DNA from: Planktothricoides raciborskii GIHE-MW2
Lineage (GTDB): Bacteria; Cyanobacteriota; Cyanobacteriia; Cyanobacteriales; Laspinemataceae
Reading direction: 5' to 3'
Length of the DNA stretch: 64,000 nt
Assembly (NCBI RefSeq): GCF_040564635.1
Contig: NZ_CP159837.1
Location: 3,583,001-3,647,000, forward strand
The position numbers and the translations under genes are program-made. The first letter of the stretch is position 1. Every line of letters starts with the position of its first letter. Below, piece after piece: positions 54,199 to 64,000 of the stretch. The notes under the pieces were generated by a model. It was given only the letters and a program-made list of their open reading frames with translations. It was not told the origin of the DNA and did no database searches.

Positions 54199-55041
54199 TC
54201 AATTAACCAGAGAAAAATTAACTCGCCGCACCATTCCCATACCCATCGTAGTTTTGCGTCCCAAACCGGCATATAAAGCAAAATCCGCCAAGGCATTTAG
54301 TTGTTTAATTGCAGTGGGTTCAACCTCTCCCAAAATTCGGAAACTAATCTCCCCAATACAGCCGATAAAAGTGCTCCGAGAATCCCCCACTACTTCGGTA
54401 CGAATATTAAAAAAACTGGGAAAAATCATCCCTAACAAATCAGGGGAAAACTCTATGCCACTGTATTTATTCCAGCGGTGCAGCAAACTATTAAAGACAC
54501 AATCCCTGGTTGGCAAAGAGGCATCGTACTGTCCCTGACGAAAAGAGGTCGGTGTGGCAATGGTAAAAGCCAGTTGGCGATCGCGATCGGAAGCCTTTTC
54601 ATATAAAGTAGAATAAGAGCTAAAATTTGCCCAAGGTTGCTGAGGTTGCGCCGTGCCTAAAATACTGGTAATGTGTAAATCTGCTGGCCCTAAATGCCAA
54701 GAATGCTCTGGGTTTAAATTCAACCAAAGCTTAGTCAAGCGAGAAAACAATGTATCATCTAATAAAGAAATCCGCCACCAGCAACGAGTCCCCCCACTAA
54801 TGCCTTGATGATACTCCCATTCTAACGAATCAATGCCGAATGCACTCCGCATTTTTCCGCTAATTTGTAAAGGACTGAGGGTGAAAGCTTTATCATTTTT
54901 TTGCTCATGGAGATAGTCGCCTAATTCTCGATCTCCCGCGCTGACCAAGGTGAGAAATAGGGCGTGTAAATGTCTGCCGGTGAGGTATTGGGGAGGAATC
55001 CAAGATTTAGGTTGGATGTTGAGGACAAGACTGTGAGGCAT
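54199..55041 (-). CDS. cas6: CRISPR-associated endoribonuclease Cas6
   Basis: A 280-residue RAMP protein that cuts precursor crRNA inside each repeat. The C-terminal glycine-rich loop GLGRKTTMGMGMVRR (about 256-270) is the Cas6 signature. N-terminal RRM-like elements include LTGRHLHALFL. A histidine near residue 26 is a candidate catalytic base. It is the last gene of the cas operon, 288 bp after cas3, separated by an invading repeat (55128-55260). Confidence 0.92.
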   Translation of the reverse strand: MPHSLVLNIQPKSWIPPQYLTGRHLHALFLTLVSAGDRELGDYLHEQKNDKAFTLSPLQISGKMRSAFGIDSLEWEYHQGISGGTRCWWRISLLDDTLFSRLTKLWLNLNPEHSWHLGPADLHITSILGTAQPQQPWANFSSYSTLYEKASDRDRQLAFTIATPTSFRQGQYDASLPTRDCVFNSLLHRWNKYSGIEFSPDLLGMIFPSFFNIRTEVVGDSRSTFIGCIGEISFRILGEVEPTAIKQLNALADFALYAGLGRKTTMGMGMVRRVNFSLVN

Positions 55042-55127: not shown

Positions 55128-55260
55128 GTAGGGGCGAAGCATTCGGGTAAAAAATTTTTCTTGTGTCCCAGAGATACTTTGCCCGAATAAGGGCGAAGCA
55201 TTCGGGTAAAAAATTTTTCTTGTGTCCCAGAGATACTTTGCCCGAATGCTTCGCCCCTAC
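55128..55260. repeat. GTAGGGGCGAAGCATT repeat with internal duplication
   Basis: The outer hairpin arms are GTAGGGGCGAAGCATTCGGG and CCCGAATGCTTCGCCCCTAC. An inner stretch (GGGCGAAGCATTCGGGTAAA through TTTGCCCGAAT) is duplicated in tandem, about 60 bp each. It sits between cas3 and cas6. Confidence 0.9.
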
Positions 55261-55329: not shown

Positions 55330-58056
55330 TTAACTGGACGGTTCTAACGCCTTAATATAGCGAATAATTACCGATTTTTTACCATTTGCACTTTCAAACT
55401 GATACAGCAATTTTTCCTCAAATCCAGTAGATTTAGGCTTGATAAACACTCCAGGCAGTTCCACAAAACCGACTTCTGGATCGTAAGGATATTCTGGCAA
55501 ATTATCTGGCATGATAGCACCATCATGGGATTTATTGATTTTGATGATAATGTCTTTATGATAAGCAAATCCCCAGCTTAAATCCCGCAAATCCGAGCAA
55601 GTCTCTTCTTGATTATAATAGCGTTCATAAACCCTGATATTGGCATAAAGATTACTGCTTGTTTCAGACTTTTTGATCGTAAAGCGGTCAATGGGTACAG
55701 AAACTTGAGGCATTTTTGCTATATCTTCGTTGGCAGAACCATCATCATAAACTAATGTCACCGAAGGTGTCCAACTGCGGGTGATGATTAAGCCTTTATC
55801 GTGAGCCGGTTGACAAGTTAAATCCGCTTCATAAACATAGTCCTGGAGCATCGAAAATAATTCGACAACTCGGTAATCATCAACATGAGGTTTATGGGCA
55901 ATACAGTCACAAATTTTATCACTGTCAAACTTAGTGAGCGATCGCAACATTTCTTGATAATTTTCCCATCCTGGTTCACTCAAAGTATTCGCGAAATTTT
56001 GAATATAATTTCCCACTAAAATAACTTTAGCATTGGCCACATCTCCTCGGCGGTTACAGCGACCTGCTCTTTGAATCAAGTTTTCTGGAGGACAAAGTTC
56101 AGAAATTAGCGTTTGGCTATTCAAATCACAACCAACTTCGATCGCGCTGGTAGTAATCAGAATATAAGATTGATTGTTGTCATCCCGATTTTTTAGGCGT
56201 TTGTAAACGTTAGTCCGAGAAAATTCGTGATTCGCAGGCTGCTCAGAAATACGGCCATGATAAAGAAATAAAAATTGTCCTTTGGCGTCAACATGAGAAC
56301 CTAACTCATGTTTAACCTGCTGATAAATAGCCACCGCATCTTTAACGGTTTCCACAACCGCAATAATCCGGCGATCGCTGTTTATTTGCCATTCATTGAG
56401 AATAACTTGGGAAAACTGGGTTTGAAAATCATTCGGATCTTGCGGATTGCGTGTAATTTCGCTCAACCATTGAAAGCTTTTTTCATTGAGACAAGATTGA
56501 TTTAAGGTTTGCTGCTGAAATTTTATGAGTTTTTCTCTGTTTTCTGGATTGGCAATATAATCAATCACCCGCAGATAATCAAAAAGATCCTGATGTTCTG
56601 GGGGCATTGTAGCGGTCATTAATACGATCGCCCGTCCCGCTTCATACAGCGATCGAACTAAACTAGAAAAATTGGTAAAAGCCAAATCATCATAACTATG
56701 GGCTTCATCAAAACAAATTAAACTTTTTTCTTGGTGAATCCGCAGGGGAAAAATAAACGACTTCTGTTTGTCTCCAAAAGCAAAATAGCGATAGAGAAAC
56801 TTATCGATAGTCGTTAAAATCACATTACCTTTGTAAAGATGGCGGCGGGGATTAATCCTCCGTTTAATTTCTTGACCATTTTGATAGACCCAGCGGTGCA
56901 TCTGGGAGCCAGTATCAACCACCAGCGAAAATTCTTTACCGGGATAAAGCTGTGAAAACTTCTTAAGGTACTCTTCAACGCGCTGTTTTTGATCTTCTAA
57001 TAAACTGCGAGCCGGTAAAGGTAAAAATAGCCGATAATTATGTGCTAAAGCAGCAAATAAAATACTCTCTAATTTACCCGTACCCGTTGGAGCTTTTAAC
57101 AAAATAGCGGGAGTTTCGTCTGCCAAAGCCTCAAACATTTCTTTTTGCATTGGGTTTGGCTGAAACCCTGCTAACTGCTGATACCAAAATTCACAGCGTT
57201 TATCTTCCGGTTCCTCTAAAGGTGGATAAGGTTTGAGGATAGCTGTTTTTGGGGGTTGCTTCGCTTGTTCTTCTGGTTTGGATTGCCACCAGTCTTTGAC
57301 AATTGTATCCAGAGTTTTGCCTAAATCTTTTGCTGGCTTTTCATCTACACATTTTTGCAACTTATTTTTGTCATCTTCAGCTAAATCATTAAGCCGCATT
57401 GCCCATGACTCAAAATTCAATTTTATGACGGCATCTTTGGCAAAAGGCCAAGGATCAATATAATATTCCAATTTCGACCCATCCTGGGCAATGGTAAAAT
57501 CCATAAATGCCCTCGATTCGGCTTGACTTTCATCTCCGATAACTCGGCAAGCTAACTCCGCTTCAATTTGATCGCACATTTCTAAAATGTAGAGTTCCTT
57601 AGCATAAGCAAGGGCGTCTTCATTTCCTAGCTGTTGATATTTTTCCTCTTTGTTCAAAGTATAAGTATCTCGACAAATATCCCCAACAGAAAAATCGTGA
57701 TGTCCCCGCGCTAAAGCTTGCGCCCAAGTATCTTTTTTACTTTCCGCTAAAAACCGATGTCCTTTGAAGGAATAGATATAGTTTTTAAAGTTTCCTTGTG
57801 AATCAGTGTTGACACCAATGGCAAATTTTTGTGGTTTCCCTTGATCGTGAATTTTCGCCGCTTCTAAAACCCGTTCAAATGAAGACTCAAAAGGAAAATC
57901 ATCTTGATCCCAATCCCGAACCAACTTCATCACATTGCCCACATGATTACCCAAAGGTTGAAAAAGAACCTCATTCGGAATCGGGTGAGGATCGCCTGGA
58001 AAAAACACGCGGCCAAAATTATAGGGACGATCGCGATCGCGCTTGACTTTTGACAT
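55330..58056 (-). CDS. cas3: Cas3 with HD nuclease and DExH helicase domains
   Basis: A 908-residue protein from the ATG at 58056 (MSKVKRDRDRPYNF), preceded by GAGGA; an upstream in-frame ATG would overlap csc1. The N-terminal HD domain shows H38, HD at 70-71, H100, HH at 119-120 and D162. The helicase has motif I KAPTGTGKLE (321-330), DEAH (450-453), TATMP and QRAGRCNRRG. Together these should degrade the displaced strand of target DNA. In textbook type I-D loci Cas3 is helicase only and HD sits on Cas10d. Here HD is on Cas3. It starts 4 bp after csc1. Confidence 0.93.
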   Translation of the reverse strand: MSKVKRDRDRPYNFGRVFFPGDPHPIPNEVLFQPLGNHVGNVMKLVRDWDQDDFPFESSFERVLEAAKIHDQGKPQKFAIGVNTDSQGNFKNYIYSFKGHRFLAESKKDTWAQALARGHHDFSVGDICRDTYTLNKEEKYQQLGNEDALAYAKELYILEMCDQIEAELACRVIGDESQAESRAFMDFTIAQDGSKLEYYIDPWPFAKDAVIKLNFESWAMRLNDLAEDDKNKLQKCVDEKPAKDLGKTLDTIVKDWWQSKPEEQAKQPPKTAILKPYPPLEEPEDKRCEFWYQQLAGFQPNPMQKEMFEALADETPAILLKAPTGTGKLESILFAALAHNYRLFLPLPARSLLEDQKQRVEEYLKKFSQLYPGKEFSLVVDTGSQMHRWVYQNGQEIKRRINPRRHLYKGNVILTTIDKFLYRYFAFGDKQKSFIFPLRIHQEKSLICFDEAHSYDDLAFTNFSSLVRSLYEAGRAIVLMTATMPPEHQDLFDYLRVIDYIANPENREKLIKFQQQTLNQSCLNEKSFQWLSEITRNPQDPNDFQTQFSQVILNEWQINSDRRIIAVVETVKDAVAIYQQVKHELGSHVDAKGQFLFLYHGRISEQPANHEFSRTNVYKRLKNRDDNNQSYILITTSAIEVGCDLNSQTLISELCPPENLIQRAGRCNRRGDVANAKVILVGNYIQNFANTLSEPGWENYQEMLRSLTKFDSDKICDCIAHKPHVDDYRVVELFSMLQDYVYEADLTCQPAHDKGLIITRSWTPSVTLVYDDGSANEDIAKMPQVSVPIDRFTIKKSETSSNLYANIRVYERYYNQEETCSDLRDLSWGFAYHKDIIIKINKSHDGAIMPDNLPEYPYDPEVGFVELPGVFIKPKSTGFEEKLLYQFESANGKKSVIIRYIKALEPSS

Positions 58057-58060
58057 AAAC

Positions 58061-58873
58061 TTATCCTCGCAGCAAATTAACCAGAGAAACAGGGATATAA
58101 ATTTCCCCGTTGGTATAGTAATCAAGGGTAGGGCTGGGATTCACCGGCTGAGAAAAATATGCCCCTACAAAGGGAACAAACCCATTAATTAAACTGGGCT
58201 GCAAATCTAAAAAGCCTTCTCGGTCTGAATCAGTTTCATAATTTGCATCCCAGTTATAACGATAAAGGTTGTAAATATCAAAACCTCCCACAACTTCCCC
58301 TCTTTCTAAAAGGGCTTCTACCGGCACAATGGTTGAAGGATTTGCGGCAACGGTTCTTTGTTCAAGGGGCATAATTTCTGAAACTTCGGTGACAATAGCA
58401 AAGCCTTCTTTGCCTAATTTACAGCCGTAGGTTTCCAAATCTTGGAAATGTTTTAAACCGGGCAAAGAGTCCGCCACCACATAACCAATTAACTCCTCAG
58501 CAATCAAATATTCCCAAGTATGTAACTGAAAATTTGCCTTATCTTCTTCCAGATATAACCTGGAAAAAGAATCATGGTTAAACTCGCGCATTCCCTTGCG
58601 ATAGGTGCGATGAACTGAACTCAACGCACCTTTAGGCAAATAAGCACCTAGGGAAAGATAACGGGGAGGTAAGGCATAAAAGGGGGGATTTTCTTTGTTA
58701 ATTCGAGTTTCGGGAATCTCTAAACCTACACTCATTATTCCTAACCTTCGCAGAAACCCAGAAAAGGTAGTGGGTGGGACAAAGGGATAGGTAGCGATAT
58801 TGAGAATTGAACCGGGCAGAATTCTAAAAGTCATCGCTGCTGCCGGTTGCAATTTAATTTCTACGCAGTACAT
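58061..58873 (-). CDS. csc1: Csc1 (Cas5-type) Cascade subunit, type I-D
   Basis: A 270-residue Cas5-like RAMP protein. The N-terminal RRM strand (YCVEIKLQPAAAMTFRILPG) leads to FVPPTTFSGFLRRLG, a Csc1/Cas5 hallmark that contacts the crRNA 5' handle. Other conserved parts are YALPPRYLSLGAYLP and SSVHRTYRKGMREF. It lies 3 bp after csc2 and 4 bp before cas3, so the genes are tightly coupled. Assignment rests on motifs plus neighbours. Confidence 0.85.
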   Translation of the reverse strand: MYCVEIKLQPAAAMTFRILPGSILNIATYPFVPPTTFSGFLRRLGIMSVGLEIPETRINKENPPFYALPPRYLSLGAYLPKGALSSVHRTYRKGMREFNHDSFSRLYLEEDKANFQLHTWEYLIAEELIGYVVADSLPGLKHFQDLETYGCKLGKEGFAIVTEVSEIMPLEQRTVAANPSTIVPVEALLERGEVVGGFDIYNLYRYNWDANYETDSDREGFLDLQPSLINGFVPFVGAYFSQPVNPSPTLDYYTNGEIYIPVSLVNLLRG

Positions 58874-58876
58874 AAA

Positions 58877-59749
58877 TTACTTCTGCAAAACAGTGTCAAC
58901 AAACAAGCTAGAATATTCCAGCAATTTTTCTAATGCAGCATCTCCAATCCAGCGATCGAAGTAGGTCGCTTGGATATGGTCTGAGTTGCTTTCTGGGGTT
59001 CTGGCAAGACGAATAAAATTATCAATTGCTGTTTCTGGATCGGTGACTGATGGGGAAATAATCGGACGTTTACCACGGGGAACTAGATACTTATCTAATA
59101 CCAACAATGGCATCTGATTTTCGCTTTCTGCGATCGCCACTCCTTTGGGATTTCCAGAACCAATCCGAGGCAAAGAATCTAAAAAAGCATAGGCAACCGA
59201 AGCAAATTCTTTCTCTGTGACACTGAGAGCGTGATTAGACACAGGATATAATATCCCCGGTTGATTATATTCCCGCTTAAAAGGGATGGGTGTTTCATCC
59301 TTTTGATTCACCAAAAGTGCCGGGTGCATTGCCCGTTGTTTTTCTACGGGATAAATTGCTTGAACTGCAACACCACCACCATGAGTAACTCGACCGATTA
59401 AAGTTCTTTTCCCCGGATCGAGCGCACCATAAGAACCACAAATCGGACAATCTGGTTTAGCACAGGTTTTAGGAATTCCACACTCTTGTTTATCGCCTAA
59501 TAACTGACCTGTTTTCACCGGCGCCCACAATAAACAACGACGTTCGACACCCCGCCGTTTTGTGGGGGAAAGATAACATTTGTCCAGAGATTCTCCATCC
59601 TTAGTCGTCAGTTTTACCATCTCTACTAAGTTGACATTTACCTGTACCTCATGCCCAAAATATAACTCTTGAGCACCTTCAAGAATGGCGTAAATGTCAA
59701 AATGCAGACGGGGATTTTGAGAATCGGTTTTAGGAAGTCCAGTAGCCAT
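58877..59749 (-). CDS. csc2: Csc2 (Cas7-type) Cascade backbone subunit, type I-D
   Basis: A 290-residue Cas7-like protein that would form the crRNA backbone. A cysteine cluster (C90, C96, C101, C104: ECGIPKTCAKPDCPICG) probably binds zinc, as in Csc2 proteins. Then come YGALDPGKRTLIGRVTHGG, RAMHPALLVN, and SLPRIGSGNPKGVAIAE. The sequence is divergent from the Synechocystis-type Csc2 that I know. It begins 2 bp after the large-subunit stop. Confidence 0.82.
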   Translation of the reverse strand: MATGLPKTDSQNPRLHFDIYAILEGAQELYFGHEVQVNVNLVEMVKLTTKDGESLDKCYLSPTKRRGVERRCLLWAPVKTGQLLGDKQECGIPKTCAKPDCPICGSYGALDPGKRTLIGRVTHGGGVAVQAIYPVEKQRAMHPALLVNQKDETPIPFKREYNQPGILYPVSNHALSVTEKEFASVAYAFLDSLPRIGSGNPKGVAIAESENQMPLLVLDKYLVPRGKRPIISPSVTDPETAIDNFIRLARTPESNSDHIQATYFDRWIGDAALEKLLEYSSLFVDTVLQK

Positions 59750-59751
59750 GA

Positions 59752-60309
59752 TTATTTCTCGCTTGTAGTAGTTTTTTCTTTTCGCAATTGCTCAGGAAAG
59801 TGAATGTAAAGAGATAACTTGAGTTGATAAGTTAAATCTCTCCAATCTTTTTCTTCCTTATAGCCACTTCTATCTGGGTTAGATAAATATTCATAGGCAG
59901 CCATTAAATCATTGGGATACAAAGTAAGTGATTTATTATGGGATTTATCGCCATCATTTTTTTGATTTTCCCGACCAGTAATGTTCAGGTTATCTTCTAA
60001 GAATTTTTTTGCTTGATCGTAGATAAAATATATATCGGGATTTCGGTAAAGCCTCACTTGAGTGAAAGTTCGTTTATCTTCTCCCACATAATTAATCGGA
60101 CAATAAAGACCAAAACAATAAGAAAAAATACTGGCATTATCGTCTACTTTTTCAATTAACTTGCCCACCTCTCGCTTCACATCTTCTGGTTTTTCCTGGT
60201 TGGTCGCATTTTTCTTAAATGCCAGAATAAAAGGATAAAGTAAGCCGGTTAAAGCTGCTACATCCCTGTATATTTTCGCTTTTTTAAACATGAGATTATC
60301 TGAAGCCAT
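59752..60309 (-). CDS. cas11d: Internal Cas11d-type small subunit (nested in cas10d)
   Basis: Inside the large-subunit gene, AAGGAG (60320-60315) lies 5 bases before an in-frame ATG (60309, MASDNLMFKKAK). Translation from here would give a 185-residue helical protein identical to the large subunit's C-terminus. Type I-D systems are known to make Cas11d in just this way. The ribosome binding site is far better than chance inside a coding region. Production is inferred. Confidence 0.65.
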   Translation of the reverse strand: MASDNLMFKKAKIYRDVAALTGLLYPFILAFKKNATNQEKPEDVKREVGKLIEKVDDNASIFSYCFGLYCPINYVGEDKRTFTQVRLYRNPDIYFIYDQAKKFLEDNLNITGRENQKNDGDKSHNKSLTLYPNDLMAAYEYLSNPDRSGYKEEKDWRDLTYQLKLSLYIHFPEQLRKEKTTTSEK

Positions 60310-62376
60310 ACATTCTCCTTGTGAGTCCAAATTTAAATCTTTCCAAATTCTTTCAAAGTATGCCTGTCGATTATTGTTTAATTGCCGCATCAAGTCGTTG
60401 CTAGACACAGTTGCATCTTTTACTGTGGTGTACTCTGCCAGAATTGGCAAATCTTTTTCTACATAACGCACCGCCTCACCCAAAGTCATGTTGATATCTT
60501 TACCGGAAATAATGATCGATTGTCCATAGCCCTCAATTAAACCTTTAATAAAAATTAAATGCCTACTTTCTAAAGCAACACCTTCACTGCCTTGATAAAT
60601 CAGAGAAAAATTAAAATCAGCTAAGACTTCGCGGGGAAAAATCGAGGCAACTTTAGCCAAAGCATATTGGACTTGACCTAACTTTGCTGAGGCAATATCT
60701 CCTTTATTTGTCTTATCTGATGCCAGAATTAAATAACGACCGGCATTTAAATGTAACTGCCCAGTTGTCACCATTCTGAGATAGTCTTTAAATTTCTCTT
60801 GTTTGTCTCTAAAATTTTGATGGTTGTTGGTATCTTTGGATTCTAGTTTGAGAATAATGCTCTCATCAGTGACTTTTAACGGTGATGCAAATGCCAGGGC
60901 AGAACAAGAGGCACAAATATGCGGTCTGCCTTCACTAGATGCTGATTGACGCCTTTGAGAAGGACGCTCAAACATAAATCTGAGAACTTGCCAACGAGCA
61001 GTTTTTGGATCGATCGCCACTCCACAGGAATAACAAAATTCTTTGCTATCATCACCGGGCGATCGCGCTTCCATAACTCTGGGTTTTTCTGTAAGTAAAG
61101 GTTCGGGTATATCCTCTTTTATTTCATTCTCCATTAAGCGATACATTTCGACAATACATTGAGTAAAAATATCCCCGCGAGTCGAGTTAATTTGGTCTGT
61201 AGCCGTTTTAGTAAAAGTTTTGGCGATCGCCTCGATTTGTTTAAACTTATCACGATTTTGCTTTCTATCCAACTCCACAAACTCAAAGGTATCTCCTTTA
61301 CTCTTTTCAAAGAGATGCCGTTTTTGCTGTACAGAAAAATTAGACCAGATAATCTGTGCTGTTAATTTATTCTGCTGATTCTGTAGCTTTTTCTGTTGGG
61401 CTTTTGTTAACCCTGACTGTCCTAGTTGTGCTTCTAAATCTTCCAGGGATTTCCAGAGGGCTTCTTGTTCATCTAAAATCTTGCCAAAACTTTTGTGAAA
61501 ATATTCCAAATATTTTTTAGCTTCTTTTGCTTGCATTTCCTCCTTGTCTTTCAATTGCTTTTGTTGTGATTTTAGGTCTTTTTCGCTTAATGCTTCATCA
61601 GATATTTGTTTTTTTAGGCGATCGATTTGCTGCTGCCGAACTTTTTGCCGATTTTGGACATCGCGAATTACTGCCAGATACCAGGCAGCTAAAACATTTG
61701 CTTGTTCCTCCGTTAAAATTGGCACATCTAAGGTACTGAAACCCCGTCCCGACAGAGTGACACTATTGAGCATGGCAATAAATGTCTGCACTAATCCGGG
61801 TAACTGATGTTTTGGTTCTCCATAAGCAGAAAAAGCCACATTTTTGATAAAGTCTTCCCACAGGTTTCTCAAGTCGGCAACCGCAAGATTACCCGGAATA
61901 AAAACCCGAACATGATAATCGCTTTCTTCTAAAACAACGATATGATGTACCTTTTGCAAATAGTCTAAAAAACGCTCGATCGCGCTTTCAGTTGCCAGTC
62001 TTGCCTGCAACTCTCCGGGTAACGGTGATTTATATAAAATCTGAAGTTTCCCGATCGCCCGTCCTTGATAAAAAATTTGGCTGCCTTTACATTTAATTTC
62101 GGGAAATTGCTGATTATTTGACCGTTTTTTTTGCTTTAGTTCTCTGATAATTCTGGGGTCGCCTAATTGCTTGGCTATCCCTAAAGCCATTGGTTGACTA
62201 CTTAATATCGAAATTAGCGTTTTTATTTCACCATTCGGGATAACCTTAGCAACTAAAGCACTCAACAGTATTTTTGGATTAAATGCAGGACTATGCTTGG
62301 GAACAATACAGCTAGTAACTTCTAAGGATGAATCCTGAAAGTTTTGCTCAAATAAATTAAGTTGTTGGCCGATCAT
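59752..62376 (-). CDS. csc3: Cas10d-like large subunit (Csc3) lacking an HD domain
   Basis: An 874-residue protein from the ATG at 62376 (MIGQQLNLFEQ), preceded by GGAAGGA; a further upstream ATG exists. No HD dyad is seen in its N-terminal part. A long helical coiled-coil region (about 235-345) is followed by a zinc-ribbon-like pair, CxxC at 448-451 and 488-491 (FCYSCGVAID, ICASCSALAF), typical of Cas10-family proteins. A palm-like segment (GRYLILASDKTNKG) follows. It would be the PAM-reading large subunit. An internal start (60309) may produce Cas11d. Identification as Cas10d rests on position, zinc pairs and the neighbouring csc1/csc2. Confidence 0.78.
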   Translation of the reverse strand: MIGQQLNLFEQNFQDSSLEVTSCIVPKHSPAFNPKILLSALVAKVIPNGEIKTLISILSSQPMALGIAKQLGDPRIIRELKQKKRSNNQQFPEIKCKGSQIFYQGRAIGKLQILYKSPLPGELQARLATESAIERFLDYLQKVHHIVVLEESDYHVRVFIPGNLAVADLRNLWEDFIKNVAFSAYGEPKHQLPGLVQTFIAMLNSVTLSGRGFSTLDVPILTEEQANVLAAWYLAVIRDVQNRQKVRQQQIDRLKKQISDEALSEKDLKSQQKQLKDKEEMQAKEAKKYLEYFHKSFGKILDEQEALWKSLEDLEAQLGQSGLTKAQQKKLQNQQNKLTAQIIWSNFSVQQKRHLFEKSKGDTFEFVELDRKQNRDKFKQIEAIAKTFTKTATDQINSTRGDIFTQCIVEMYRLMENEIKEDIPEPLLTEKPRVMEARSPGDDSKEFCYSCGVAIDPKTARWQVLRFMFERPSQRRQSASSEGRPHICASCSALAFASPLKVTDESIILKLESKDTNNHQNFRDKQEKFKDYLRMVTTGQLHLNAGRYLILASDKTNKGDIASAKLGQVQYALAKVASIFPREVLADFNFSLIYQGSEGVALESRHLIFIKGLIEGYGQSIIISGKDINMTLGEAVRYVEKDLPILAEYTTVKDATVSSNDLMRQLNNNRQAYFERIWKDLNLDSQGECMASDNLMFKKAKIYRDVAALTGLLYPFILAFKKNATNQEKPEDVKREVGKLIEKVDDNASIFSYCFGLYCPINYVGEDKRTFTQVRLYRNPDIYFIYDQAKKFLEDNLNITGRENQKNDGDKSHNKSLTLYPNDLMAAYEYLSNPDRSGYKEEKDWRDLTYQLKLSLYIHFPEQLRKEKTTTSEK

Positions 62377-62435
62377 GCTTGATTTTCCTTCCCATAAGCG
62401 ATACAAGCTAAAATATCCTCACGTTCCCCAACCCT

Positions 62436-62510
62436 GTAGGGGCGAAGCATTCGCGTAGATAATTTTTGGGTTAACAGTGAACATTCAGCCGCGAATGCTT
62501 CGCCCTTGCG
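62436..62510. repeat. GTAGGGGCGAAGCATT repeat in the cas leader
   Basis: GTAGGGGCGAAGCATTCGCG pairs with CGCGAATGCTTCGCCC. It sits between the 57-aa ORF and the large-subunit gene and may lower read-through from the shared promoter. Confidence 0.8.
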
Positions 62511-62542
62511 GGCTAATTGGCAAAATTGGGATAATTCGCATT

Positions 62543-62716
62543 TTATGAGTCGAGCAAATCAGCCAAAAAGCTGATCTCCCCTTCATCGTTTTCTACAGTG
62601 GCACACTCCCACTCTTGGAGTAAGCGATCAATCCGTGCTATTTCCCGTGCGAAAATCTCTCGAACTTCTCTTAGAGTCTCAATTTGAGAGCGCAATGCTT
62701 GATGGGAGTAGTTCAT
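62543..62716 (-). CDS. 57-aa helical protein at the head of the cas operon
   Basis: A short gene with ATG at 62716 and TAA at 62545-62543. GCAGGA lies 5 bases upstream of the ATG, a strong ribosome binding site. The product starts MNYSHQALRSQIETLRE, is almost fully helical with heptad spacing to about residue 37, and has an acidic end (ENDEGEISFLADLLDS). It matches no family I know. Its predicted promoter (62762-62790) also serves the cas operon 167 bp downstream. It could be a small Cas accessory factor, a regulator, or a toxin held down by the adjacent crRNA-like RNA. Confidence 0.6.
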   Translation of the reverse strand: MNYSHQALRSQIETLREVREIFAREIARIDRLLQEWECATVENDEGEISFLADLLDS

Positions 62717-62761: not shown

Positions 62762-62790
62762 TAGCATAAAAATTTTATTGTCTGCTATCA
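62762..62790 (-). promoter_or_regulatory. Promoter of the 57-aa ORF and cas operon
   Basis: On the minus strand TTGATA (62790-62785) and TATGCT (62767-62762) are separated by exactly 17 bp, a good sigma-70-type promoter. The ATG is 46 bp downstream. The -35 box lies inside the protospacer-like sequence 62782-62801. Confidence 0.65.
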
Positions 62791-62801
62791 ATGAGGTTAT
62801 T
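62779..62801 (+). promoter_or_regulatory. PAM plus protospacer-like site overlapping the -35 box
   Basis: GTC (62779-62781) is a valid type I-D GTH PAM. The next 20 bases (TGCTATCAATGAGGTTATTA) match the first 22 bases of the spacer-like segment at 62872 at 19 positions, with one mismatch and two single-base gaps. Confidence 0.55.
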
Positions 62802-62826
62802 AATCAATCGCGCAACGGACAAAACT

Positions 62827-62835
62827 TGGTATAAT
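62827..62835 (+). promoter_or_regulatory. Extended -10 promoter of the crRNA-like RNA
   Basis: TGGTATAAT fits the extended -10 consensus TGnTATAAT exactly. Transcription should start near 62842. No good -35 is seen, as is usual for extended -10 promoters. Confidence 0.65.
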
Positions 62836-62841
62836 CCCACG

Positions 62842-62956
62842 CAGAGCGAATTCCAGCACAGGAATTGAAATTGCTAATCAAGGGAGGTTATTATTTAGCC
62901 CCTTATCCCGAATCCCTTTCAGGGTTTATCGGCCAGAGGTTTACTCTGGCTTTTTT
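62842..62956 (+). ncRNA. Predicted crRNA-like small RNA (CreA/CreR-like)
   Basis: Between its own promoter and its own terminator lie three parts. A repeat-like hairpin (62848-62871: GAATTCC, six-base loop, GGAATTG, then AAAT) ends in ATTGAAAT, close to the ATTGAAAC 5' handle of many CRISPR repeats. A 38-nt spacer-like segment follows (62872-62909). A second degenerate repeat (62910-62930, GAATCCCTTTCAGGGTTTATC) keeps the GAATnCC and CAGG positions. This is the repeat-spacer-repeat plan of CreA-type guide RNAs. The long ORF in the region (62865-63125) crosses the terminator and is not believed. Confidence 0.6.
62932..62956 (+). terminator. Intrinsic terminator of the crRNA-like RNA
   Basis: GCCAGAG (62932-62938), loop GTTTA, CTCTGGC (62944-62950), then six T. 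A textbook terminator that ends transcription before the WYL gene. Confidence 0.9.
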
Positions 62957-63148
62957 AGTGCCTAGATTTTTGTATCCACACTTAGCAAGCATGACCCCCA
63001 CCGGCACAGCATCAGCAAGACGAGAAAATACTGGCTTCAAAGTAATACAGCAACTCATGGCTGGACATCCTCCCAGGCAGCTTGTACATTTACAATATAA
63101 ACAAGTAAGCCAATTATGTCAATAGTGCAAGTATAAAAATTTTTAGCT
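62957..63148. other. Upstream region of the WYL gene
   Basis: About 190 bp with no clear gene. An AT-rich run just before the ATG (GTATAAAAATTTTTAGC) may hold the WYL promoter. The ribosome binding site is weak. Confidence 0.4.
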
Positions 63149-64000
63149 ATGCCCAGAAAAAAAGAAGCCCTAACCCTGTCGGTTCCCCCTGGAACCAAAG
63201 AAAAACTAGAGTCGATCGCCTCTAAACTCAAGATATTGTGGGGAAAAAAGCCCAGTGCATCTGGGCTAATCGTCGCGATCGCCGAGCAAACCGTGCAAGT
63301 AGGACAACCTTTTGCCCTCAGTACAGTGCAAGTACAATCTTTAAATCAAGCCATCAAAGCCCTAATCGATGCGGGTCACTTGGGAGACGCTCAAATCCTG
63401 ACGACCCTGGCGATCGAACAGGGAAACCTCAGCCCCCAAGAACATCAAACCCTCATGCAGCAAGTCAGCCAGCCTAATCAAGCTTGGCGTGTCACCGTCG
63501 ATGAGTATCGCCAAAATCAACAACCCTTTCATCTTCTTTATCGCAATGCTCAAGGGGAAAACCTTTCTTATACCGTGCGTTACGCCGAAATCAACTTTTA
63601 TGAGAAACGGTTTTACTTGCAAATTTGGTGTGATGAAACCGAAGACATCAAAGACAGCAAAAACATCTCCTATGCCGAACTCAAACATAATCGCTGTCTG
63701 CGGTTCGATCGCATTCAAAGCATCCTACCCGCCACCGGCCATTGGCGCAGCGAAGGCTTAGATCACATAAAAGTGTATTTACACTTTTATCGGGGCATGG
63801 TCAAAGCTTATGAACCCAGAGTAGGGCAAGACATCAGCGACGAAACCACCGGCAACGTTCGCCAAGTGGTTCGCCGAGTCAATCACCCCTTCTGGCTAGT
63901 GCGAGAAGTCCTGCGTTATGGCCAAGATTGCATAGTCATATCTCCCGATAACGTCCGTGAAGAGGTTAAACAAGAGATTCTGGCCACTTGCCACAACTAC
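63149..64000 (+). CDS. WYL-domain regulator, C-terminus outside the window
   Basis: At least 284 residues, open to the window end, starting MPRKKEALTLSVPPGTKEKL at the ATG at 63149. The N-terminus looks like a ribbon-helix-helix or HTH DNA-binding part. Residues about 125-285 contain the WYL-type ligand domain (HLLYRNAQGENLSYTVRY, then EKRFYLQIWC and FDRIQSI). WYL proteins next to cyanobacterial type I-D loci can repress CRISPR expression (Sll7009 of Synechocystis is the known case). It is divergent from the cas operon, so it is the obvious candidate regulator of both. Confidence 0.88.
   Translation, partial: MPRKKEALTLSVPPGTKEKLESIASKLKILWGKKPSASGLIVAIAEQTVQVGQPFALSTVQVQSLNQAIKALIDAGHLGDAQILTTLAIEQGNLSPQEHQTLMQQVSQPNQAWRVTVDEYRQNQQPFHLLYRNAQGENLSYTVRYAEINFYEKRFYLQIWCDETEDIKDSKNISYAELKHNRCLRFDRIQSILPATGHWRSEGLDHIKVYLHFYRGMVKAYEPRVGQDISDETTGNVRQVVRRVNHPFWLVREVLRYGQDCIVISPDNVREEVKQEILATCHNY

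Follow-up and report, generated by a model that had tools for sequence, protein, structure and literature searches.

The mini-array that adjoins a type I cas operon in the window is very probably a CreR-like autoregulatory guide RNA gene, with which Cascade would repress its own operon. The window is the whole 64-kb stretch of DNA analysed in this study and corresponds to bases 3583001-3647000 of a 7.2-Mb chromosome. The mini-array is housed in the 432-nt gap from ORF57 to the WYL gene, and its parts follow one another in the order promoter, repeat, guide, decayed second repeat and terminator (Table 1). CreR RNAs resemble crRNAs and regulate cas genes in type I and V-A systems, and regulators of this kind are already known (review PMC12737573). 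As in CreR genes, a standalone repeat-like unit lies beside the cas genes, with a promoter and a terminator that were recognised by consensus scans only. The repeat is like the system's own, and the guide is partly complementary to the predicted cas promoter next to a PAM.

Table 1. Positions of the mini-array, its target and the neighbouring genes in the window.
Feature	Position	Strand	Basis
Mini-array's own predicted promoter, extended -10 TGGTATAAT	62827-62835	+	sequence reading, consensus scan
First repeat R1 GAATTCCAGCACAGGAATTGAAAT, Cas6-type hairpin, 8-nt handle ATTGAAAT	62848-62871	+	likeness to 3' part of array repeats
Guide region TGCTAATCAAGGGAGGTTATTA	62872-62893	+	alignment to promoter target
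Second, degenerate repeat R2, stem GAATCCCTTTCAGGG kept, handle decayed	62910-62929	+	recognisable in relatives too
Predicted intrinsic terminator GGCCAGAGGTTTACTCTGGCTTTTTT	62931-62957	+	stem 62931-62951, then T run
PAM GTC	62780-62782	+	GTN before target in 24/24 loci
Target (protospacer) TGCTATCAATGAGGTTATTA over -35 box	62783-62802	+	alignment with guide
Predicted ORF57-cas promoter, -35 TTGATA (62786-62791), -10 TATGCT (62763-62768), 17-nt spacing	62763-62791	-	9/12 consensus
ORF57, small acidic protein, first gene behind targeted promoter	62543-62716	-	ORF reading, relatives
Large subunit, PADLOC Cas8b (type I-B), predicted fold nearest type I-D Cas10d	59752-62406	-	PADLOC, predicted fold
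cas7, PADLOC Cas7b, predicted fold nearest type I-D Csc2	58877-59749	-	PADLOC, predicted fold
cas5, PADLOC Cas5b	58061-58873	-	PADLOC
cas3 helicase, N-terminal HD-type motif	55330-58125	-	profile searches, motif by eye
cas6, best PADLOC model Cas6d	54199-55041	-	profile searches
Divergent WYL/WCX-domain regulator, runs off window	63149-64000	+	profile searches

R1 resembles the genome's array repeats, GTTGCAACTATATTGAATCCCTATTAGGGATTGAAAC and GTTGCAACTATATAGAATCCCTATCAGGGATTGAAAC, in their 3' part. It has the identical ATTGAAA handle and the same hairpin, in which C-G is replaced by U-A on both arms; a comparison with the genomic CRISPR repeat had been proposed in a preliminary description of this DNA, and it yielded this resemblance. 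The stem of R2 agrees with the core of the array repeat, and its retention after loss of the handle is expected where no spacer comes after. The same description had proposed a unit with its own promoter and terminator around a repeat, a guide and a degenerate repeat. The extended -10 and the terminator were found again by consensus scans and both repeats were recovered, with R2 ending at 62929 instead of 62930 and some other coordinates shifted by one. Terminator-like sites were frequent in shuffled sequence (1.3 expected). Neither the window nor the mini-array element matched any Rfam family.

An unconstrained Smith-Waterman alignment of guide and target started at guide nt 1 and covered 22 guide nt with 19 matches, 1 mismatch and two 1-nt gaps. 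This reproduced exactly the gapped match reported earlier, whose target had been placed one nucleotide off at 62782-62801. The score was equalled by 0 of 300 shuffles. The target has no nucleotide opposite guide 5/6, and a second is missing opposite guide 11/12. When both strands of the 64 kb were scanned with a model of GTN followed by 5/5/5 blocks, a single site reached 12 of 15 matches or more, the one at 62783, with 14/15. The target was found on the -35 box of a predicted promoter with 17-nt spacing, as had been claimed, and the predicted -35 starts at 62786 instead of 62785. Its 9/12 consensus positions make this predicted promoter weak when taken alone.

Related loci were collected by a large-subunit search, which gave 24 loci from about 390 genomes of the order and 9 loci from about 390 genomes of the class. 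A scan of GTDB contigs with a Cas7 alignment gave 47 named loci, in genomes partly overlapping those of the other searches, and a wider family search around G134 gave no additional loci. The named relatives with the operon were mostly cyanobacteria. Among the 56 non-duplicate loci examined for the mini-array, the unit was present in 24. Twenty-one of these are cyanobacterial, including L065, which is labelled Syntrophomonadaceae and is probably a misbinned cyanobacterial contig; the others are a Deltaproteobacteria MAG (L087), Meiothermus (L104) and a Binatia MAG (L106). The hosts include Microcystis, Roseofilum, Symploca, Limnothrix, Prochloron, Pseudanabaena, Phormidesmis and Iningainema. 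No recognisable mini-array was seen in 14 of 35 cyanobacterial loci of the same operon type, and the mini-array is therefore not essential. Searches for units in loci without the ATTGAAA handle gave scattered or repeat-derived matches, none with a handle. Mini-arrays aimed at cas8 promoters have reportedly been surveyed and described in many type I systems, and the loci found here may already be listed in that survey. The mini-array was not found in genomes of the same species or genus that lack this cas8. One of these same-genus genomes (G184, locus L137) keeps a 95% identical stretch over the start of the WYL gene, and this stretch suggests that the cas block and the RNA were lost or gained together.

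The layout of the unit was shared by the 24 loci. The standalone repeat ends in TTGAAAN or CTGAAAN and lies upstream of cas8 on the opposite strand, and a consensus scan placed a -10-like box 27-61 nt 5' of the guide. A second repeat was present in most of the loci and a terminator in many cyanobacterial ones, where the form GCCAGAG..CTCTGGC-T, like that of the window, was common. The standalone repeats follow the local array repeat: the ACTGAAAC handle occurs in both in L084/L062, and L071 and L066 behave likewise. The array lies inside the cas locus in L071, L066 and L084. Guide nt 1 is where the best local match starts in all loci but one (23/24), and the target is on the same strand as the guide, 78-125 nt upstream. 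The best-scoring cas-strand -35 overlaps protospacer nt 1-17 in 18/24. A poor fit was seen in L038, where 25 of 300 shuffles equalled the alignment. The PAM-adjacent match, which the preliminary description had wished to see compared across related genomes, is kept in these loci. It had also named a GTH rule for the PAM; the GTC directly before the target was confirmed, and the rule became GTN, since L042 uses GTG.

The arrays of the relatives bear on this PAM. Microcystis carries arrays next to this operon type (L115, L118), and two of their spacers have perfect plasmid protospacers, preceded by GTT and GTC, which indicates that the GTN PAM is the system's own. Two imperfect plasmid matches (31/34 and 34/35) have no GTN flank, as escape or chance would give. 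No array of the operon's own system was seen in the 64-kb window, and protospacers of the genome's own arrays were sought in phages and none was found. The genome has two very large arrays with about 420 repeat pairs in total (G000:C1 467816-486000 and 2920461-2932900), far from the operon, one of which adjoins cas1. Mini-arrays with the exact host repeat were also observed in the Microcystis phages Ma-LMM01 (NC_008562; L132 1454-1700) and MaMV-CH01 (PP681321; L133 1501-1627). The MaMV-CH01 spacer matches the Ma-LMM01 mini-array promoter at 36/36 with a GTT PAM and its own promoter with 4 mismatches, and a Ma-LMM01 spacer matches MaMV-CH01 at 34/36. From these matches, the phage mini-arrays look like a phage-phage conflict via the host CRISPR system.

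A blind scan was performed on the 56 loci, using handles in the first 1000 nt upstream and the model GTN + 5 + (0, 1 or 2) + 5 with at most 1 mismatch. Matches were found at 20 of 116 handle-like positions compared with 180 of 100,869 other starts, and every one was on the strand opposite to cas8. Guides paired with their own targets at 13.3 of 15 positions and with swapped targets at 6.0 of 15. These results indicate that guide and target change together. Along with the conservation of the unit, this coevolution lends strong support to the core of the preliminary description, a free-standing crRNA-like gene with a guide directed at its own cas promoter. In a permutation test of the guide-target pairs, 0 of 20,000 permutations were as good; the seeds form about 16 groups. 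The mini-array could instead be a decayed CRISPR array remnant, functionless now, whose last spacer is a chance match or a duplicated promoter fragment. The decayed handle of R2, the departure of R1 from the array repeat and the patchy presence of mini-arrays on a Cas8b tree, which requires 12 changes, would fit a remnant. However, guide and target co-change over the seed groups, GTN is kept in 24/24 loci, and the R1 hairpin is preserved by two-sided change. Coevolution refutes the remnant as a general account, which is very improbable, and it could hold for single loci such as L038. It is extremely improbable that the RNA is a repeat decoy which only occupies Cas6 or Cascade, like phage Racrs, with the promoter match being secondary. 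Such decoys exist (PMC10651486), and the mini-array has Cas6-type repeats with its own predicted promoter and terminator; yet a decoy needs no guide match, and what is conserved is that nt 1-5, 7-11 and 13-17 pair with a promoter site flanked by a PAM.

The gaps in the match had been regarded as the weak point of the guide reading. We rejected them as a fatal weakness, since a gap recurs in the alignments of relatives: a nucleotide is missing opposite guide 6 or 10-12 in 20 of 24 targets. We fitted a block model (1-5, 7-11, 13-17) to 23 loci, leaving out L038, whose best alignment has one gap on each side. The number of loci paired was 20-23 at nt 1-5, 5 at nt 6, 21-23 at nt 7-10, 16 at nt 11, 5 at nt 12 and 13-22 at nt 13-17. 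The target gap was opposite guide 6 in 12 loci, opposite guide 12 in 9 and at neither in 3, where the model puts gaps at 6 and 12 by construction; both gaps occur in the window target, and in this fit the target was never longer than the guide. In unconstrained alignments of the same loci, the gaps fall at 5-7 or 10-13. The gap is unambiguous at guide 6 in L050, L053, L060 and L087. For the second gap, the best alignment gives 10 or 11 in Microcystis, 11 in L054 and 10 in L055, and a strict position 12 for the second skip was replaced by 10-12.

Cascade flips out every sixth nucleotide, which then need not pair (PMC10212523), and the skips fall at or near these positions. CreA of the CreTA modules, which belong to type I-B in haloarchaea (PMC8501985, PMC9458426), requires no more than nt 1-5 and 7-11 for promoter repression by Cascade (PMC8501985), and the position-wise pairing found here is this CreA pattern. 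A bulge in CreA pairing is mentioned in neither PMC8501985 nor PMC9458426, and we found no description of a conserved skip in the accessible literature on such regulators. What is new here is that the loss is directional: it is the target that lacks a nucleotide, at or next to the flipped-out places. The skip probably limits pairing so that Cas3 does not cut. On the Cas8b tree, the skip class requires 8 changes among the loci having a mini-array, which are related; together with the 12 changes in presence, this indicates shared descent and yet repeated switching. With somewhat more doubt than confidence, we propose that the one-nucleotide deficit of the target opposite guide 6 or 10-12 is a selected code by which a nuclease-armed Cascade holds its own promoter without licensing Cas3, and that it arose repeatedly and switched between both sites.

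The subtype of the operon was examined by profiles and predicted folds. Full-length PADLOC profiles matched Cas8b (E 0), Cas7b (2.6e-134) and Cas5b (4.2e-114), giving type I-B membership in the PADLOC sense. No match to the Csc1, Csc2 or Csc3(Cas10d) models of Pfam and NCBIfam was found in the operon at E 0.001, and the type I-D label was rejected by profiles. The predicted Cas7 was nearest to Csc2 7sba_A (Z 13.9, rmsd 5.4, 251 residues), with several other Cas7 chains within Z 1, and the predicted large subunit was nearest to Cas10d 7sba_I, a modest match (Z 7.7, rmsd 7.4, 426 residues). A PDB sequence search with Cas7, Cas8b and Cas5 gave nothing relevant. HD-type motifs were seen by eye at the Cas3 N terminus and none was recognised at the large-subunit N terminus; the Pfam HD model matched neither protein. 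The type I-D trait of an HD domain on the large subunit with an HD-less Cas3' was not found. The earlier assignment to type I-D agrees with the folds and the GTN PAM but not with the I-B profiles, the missing Csc matches and the HD motif on Cas3. Like the type I-D Cascade (Csc1/Csc2/Cas10d; PMC10212523), the system also has a WYL regulator nearby and a Cas6d-like Cas6. We treated the operon as an I-B-labelled lineage with effector folds predicted to be I-D-like, and it may be intermediate between I-B and I-D.

In the relatives, the targeted promoter is followed first by ORF57 or another small, mostly acidic ORF. A C-terminal motif of ORF57, D-x-E-G-E-I-x-x-x-A-D, is common to most cyanobacterial relatives. 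ORF57 is fast-evolving (window and relatives L035-L065) and mostly co-occurs with the mini-array. The small ORF runs straight into cas8 in several loci and a hairpin lies between them in others, so that some attenuation between ORF57 and cas8 is possible. Hairpin-forming GGGCGAAGCATTCG elements were observed between ORF57 and cas8 (62437-62520) and between cas6 and cas3 (55132-55247), the latter as a perfect 59-bp tandem pair. The position of ORF57 would suit an addiction module like CreTA or CrePA, in which ORF57 would be a toxin repressed by the guide, with the cas genes merely a carrier to be kept. A small, mostly acidic ORF is first in most mini-array loci, and a hairpin separates it from cas8 in L034, L040, L042, L044 and L046. 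However, in L035, L059, L060, L087 and L104 a distance of 3-24 nt separates the end of the small ORF from the cas8 open frame, so the promoter should drive cas8 too. ORF57 also had no family match in Pfam, NCBIfam or PADLOC, and no toxin-like feature was recognised. We consider an addiction module unlikely and prefer autorepression of the whole operon.

The pairing is conserved in widely different bacteria, regularly with one letter left out, so the immune system probably uses the mini-array as its own off-switch while leaving its own DNA uncut. In autorepression, Cas6 would cut the short transcript before ATTGAAAT, and Cascade carrying the mini-array RNA would bind the promoter through guide nt 1-5, 7-11 and 13-17. 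The bound Cascade would shut out RNA polymerase and so hold down its own synthesis. With pairing limited and the target short of a nucleotide at guide 6 and/or 10-12, the R-loop would stop growing and Cas3 would stay unlicensed. When array crRNAs are abundant, or an anti-CRISPR or phage occupies Cascade, the RNA would lose its carrier and the operon would be released; CreR repression is likewise expected to loosen when crRNAs or anti-CRISPRs occupy the effector. Also like CreR, which usually comes without a toxin gene, the unit is a repeat-derived guide that stands alone next to the cas operon and points at the cas promoter. Unlike CreR, it has the skip in most targets, an effector of a GTN-PAM lineage with mixed I-B/I-D traits, and a small, mostly acidic ORF first behind the promoter. 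Two degenerate repeats flank the guide as in CreA, but CreA represses an RNA toxin, whereas the promoter here leads to ORF57 and the cas genes.

These results would add a widespread cyanobacterial lineage, and Meiothermus, Deltaproteobacteria and Binatia, to the hosts in which CRISPR operons repress themselves through a guide RNA. They also offer a simple sequence rule that separates such guides from killing guides. If the skip rule is causal, it would explain how an armed type I system sits on its own chromosome uncut, and it would provide a design rule for gene repression with unmodified type I systems.
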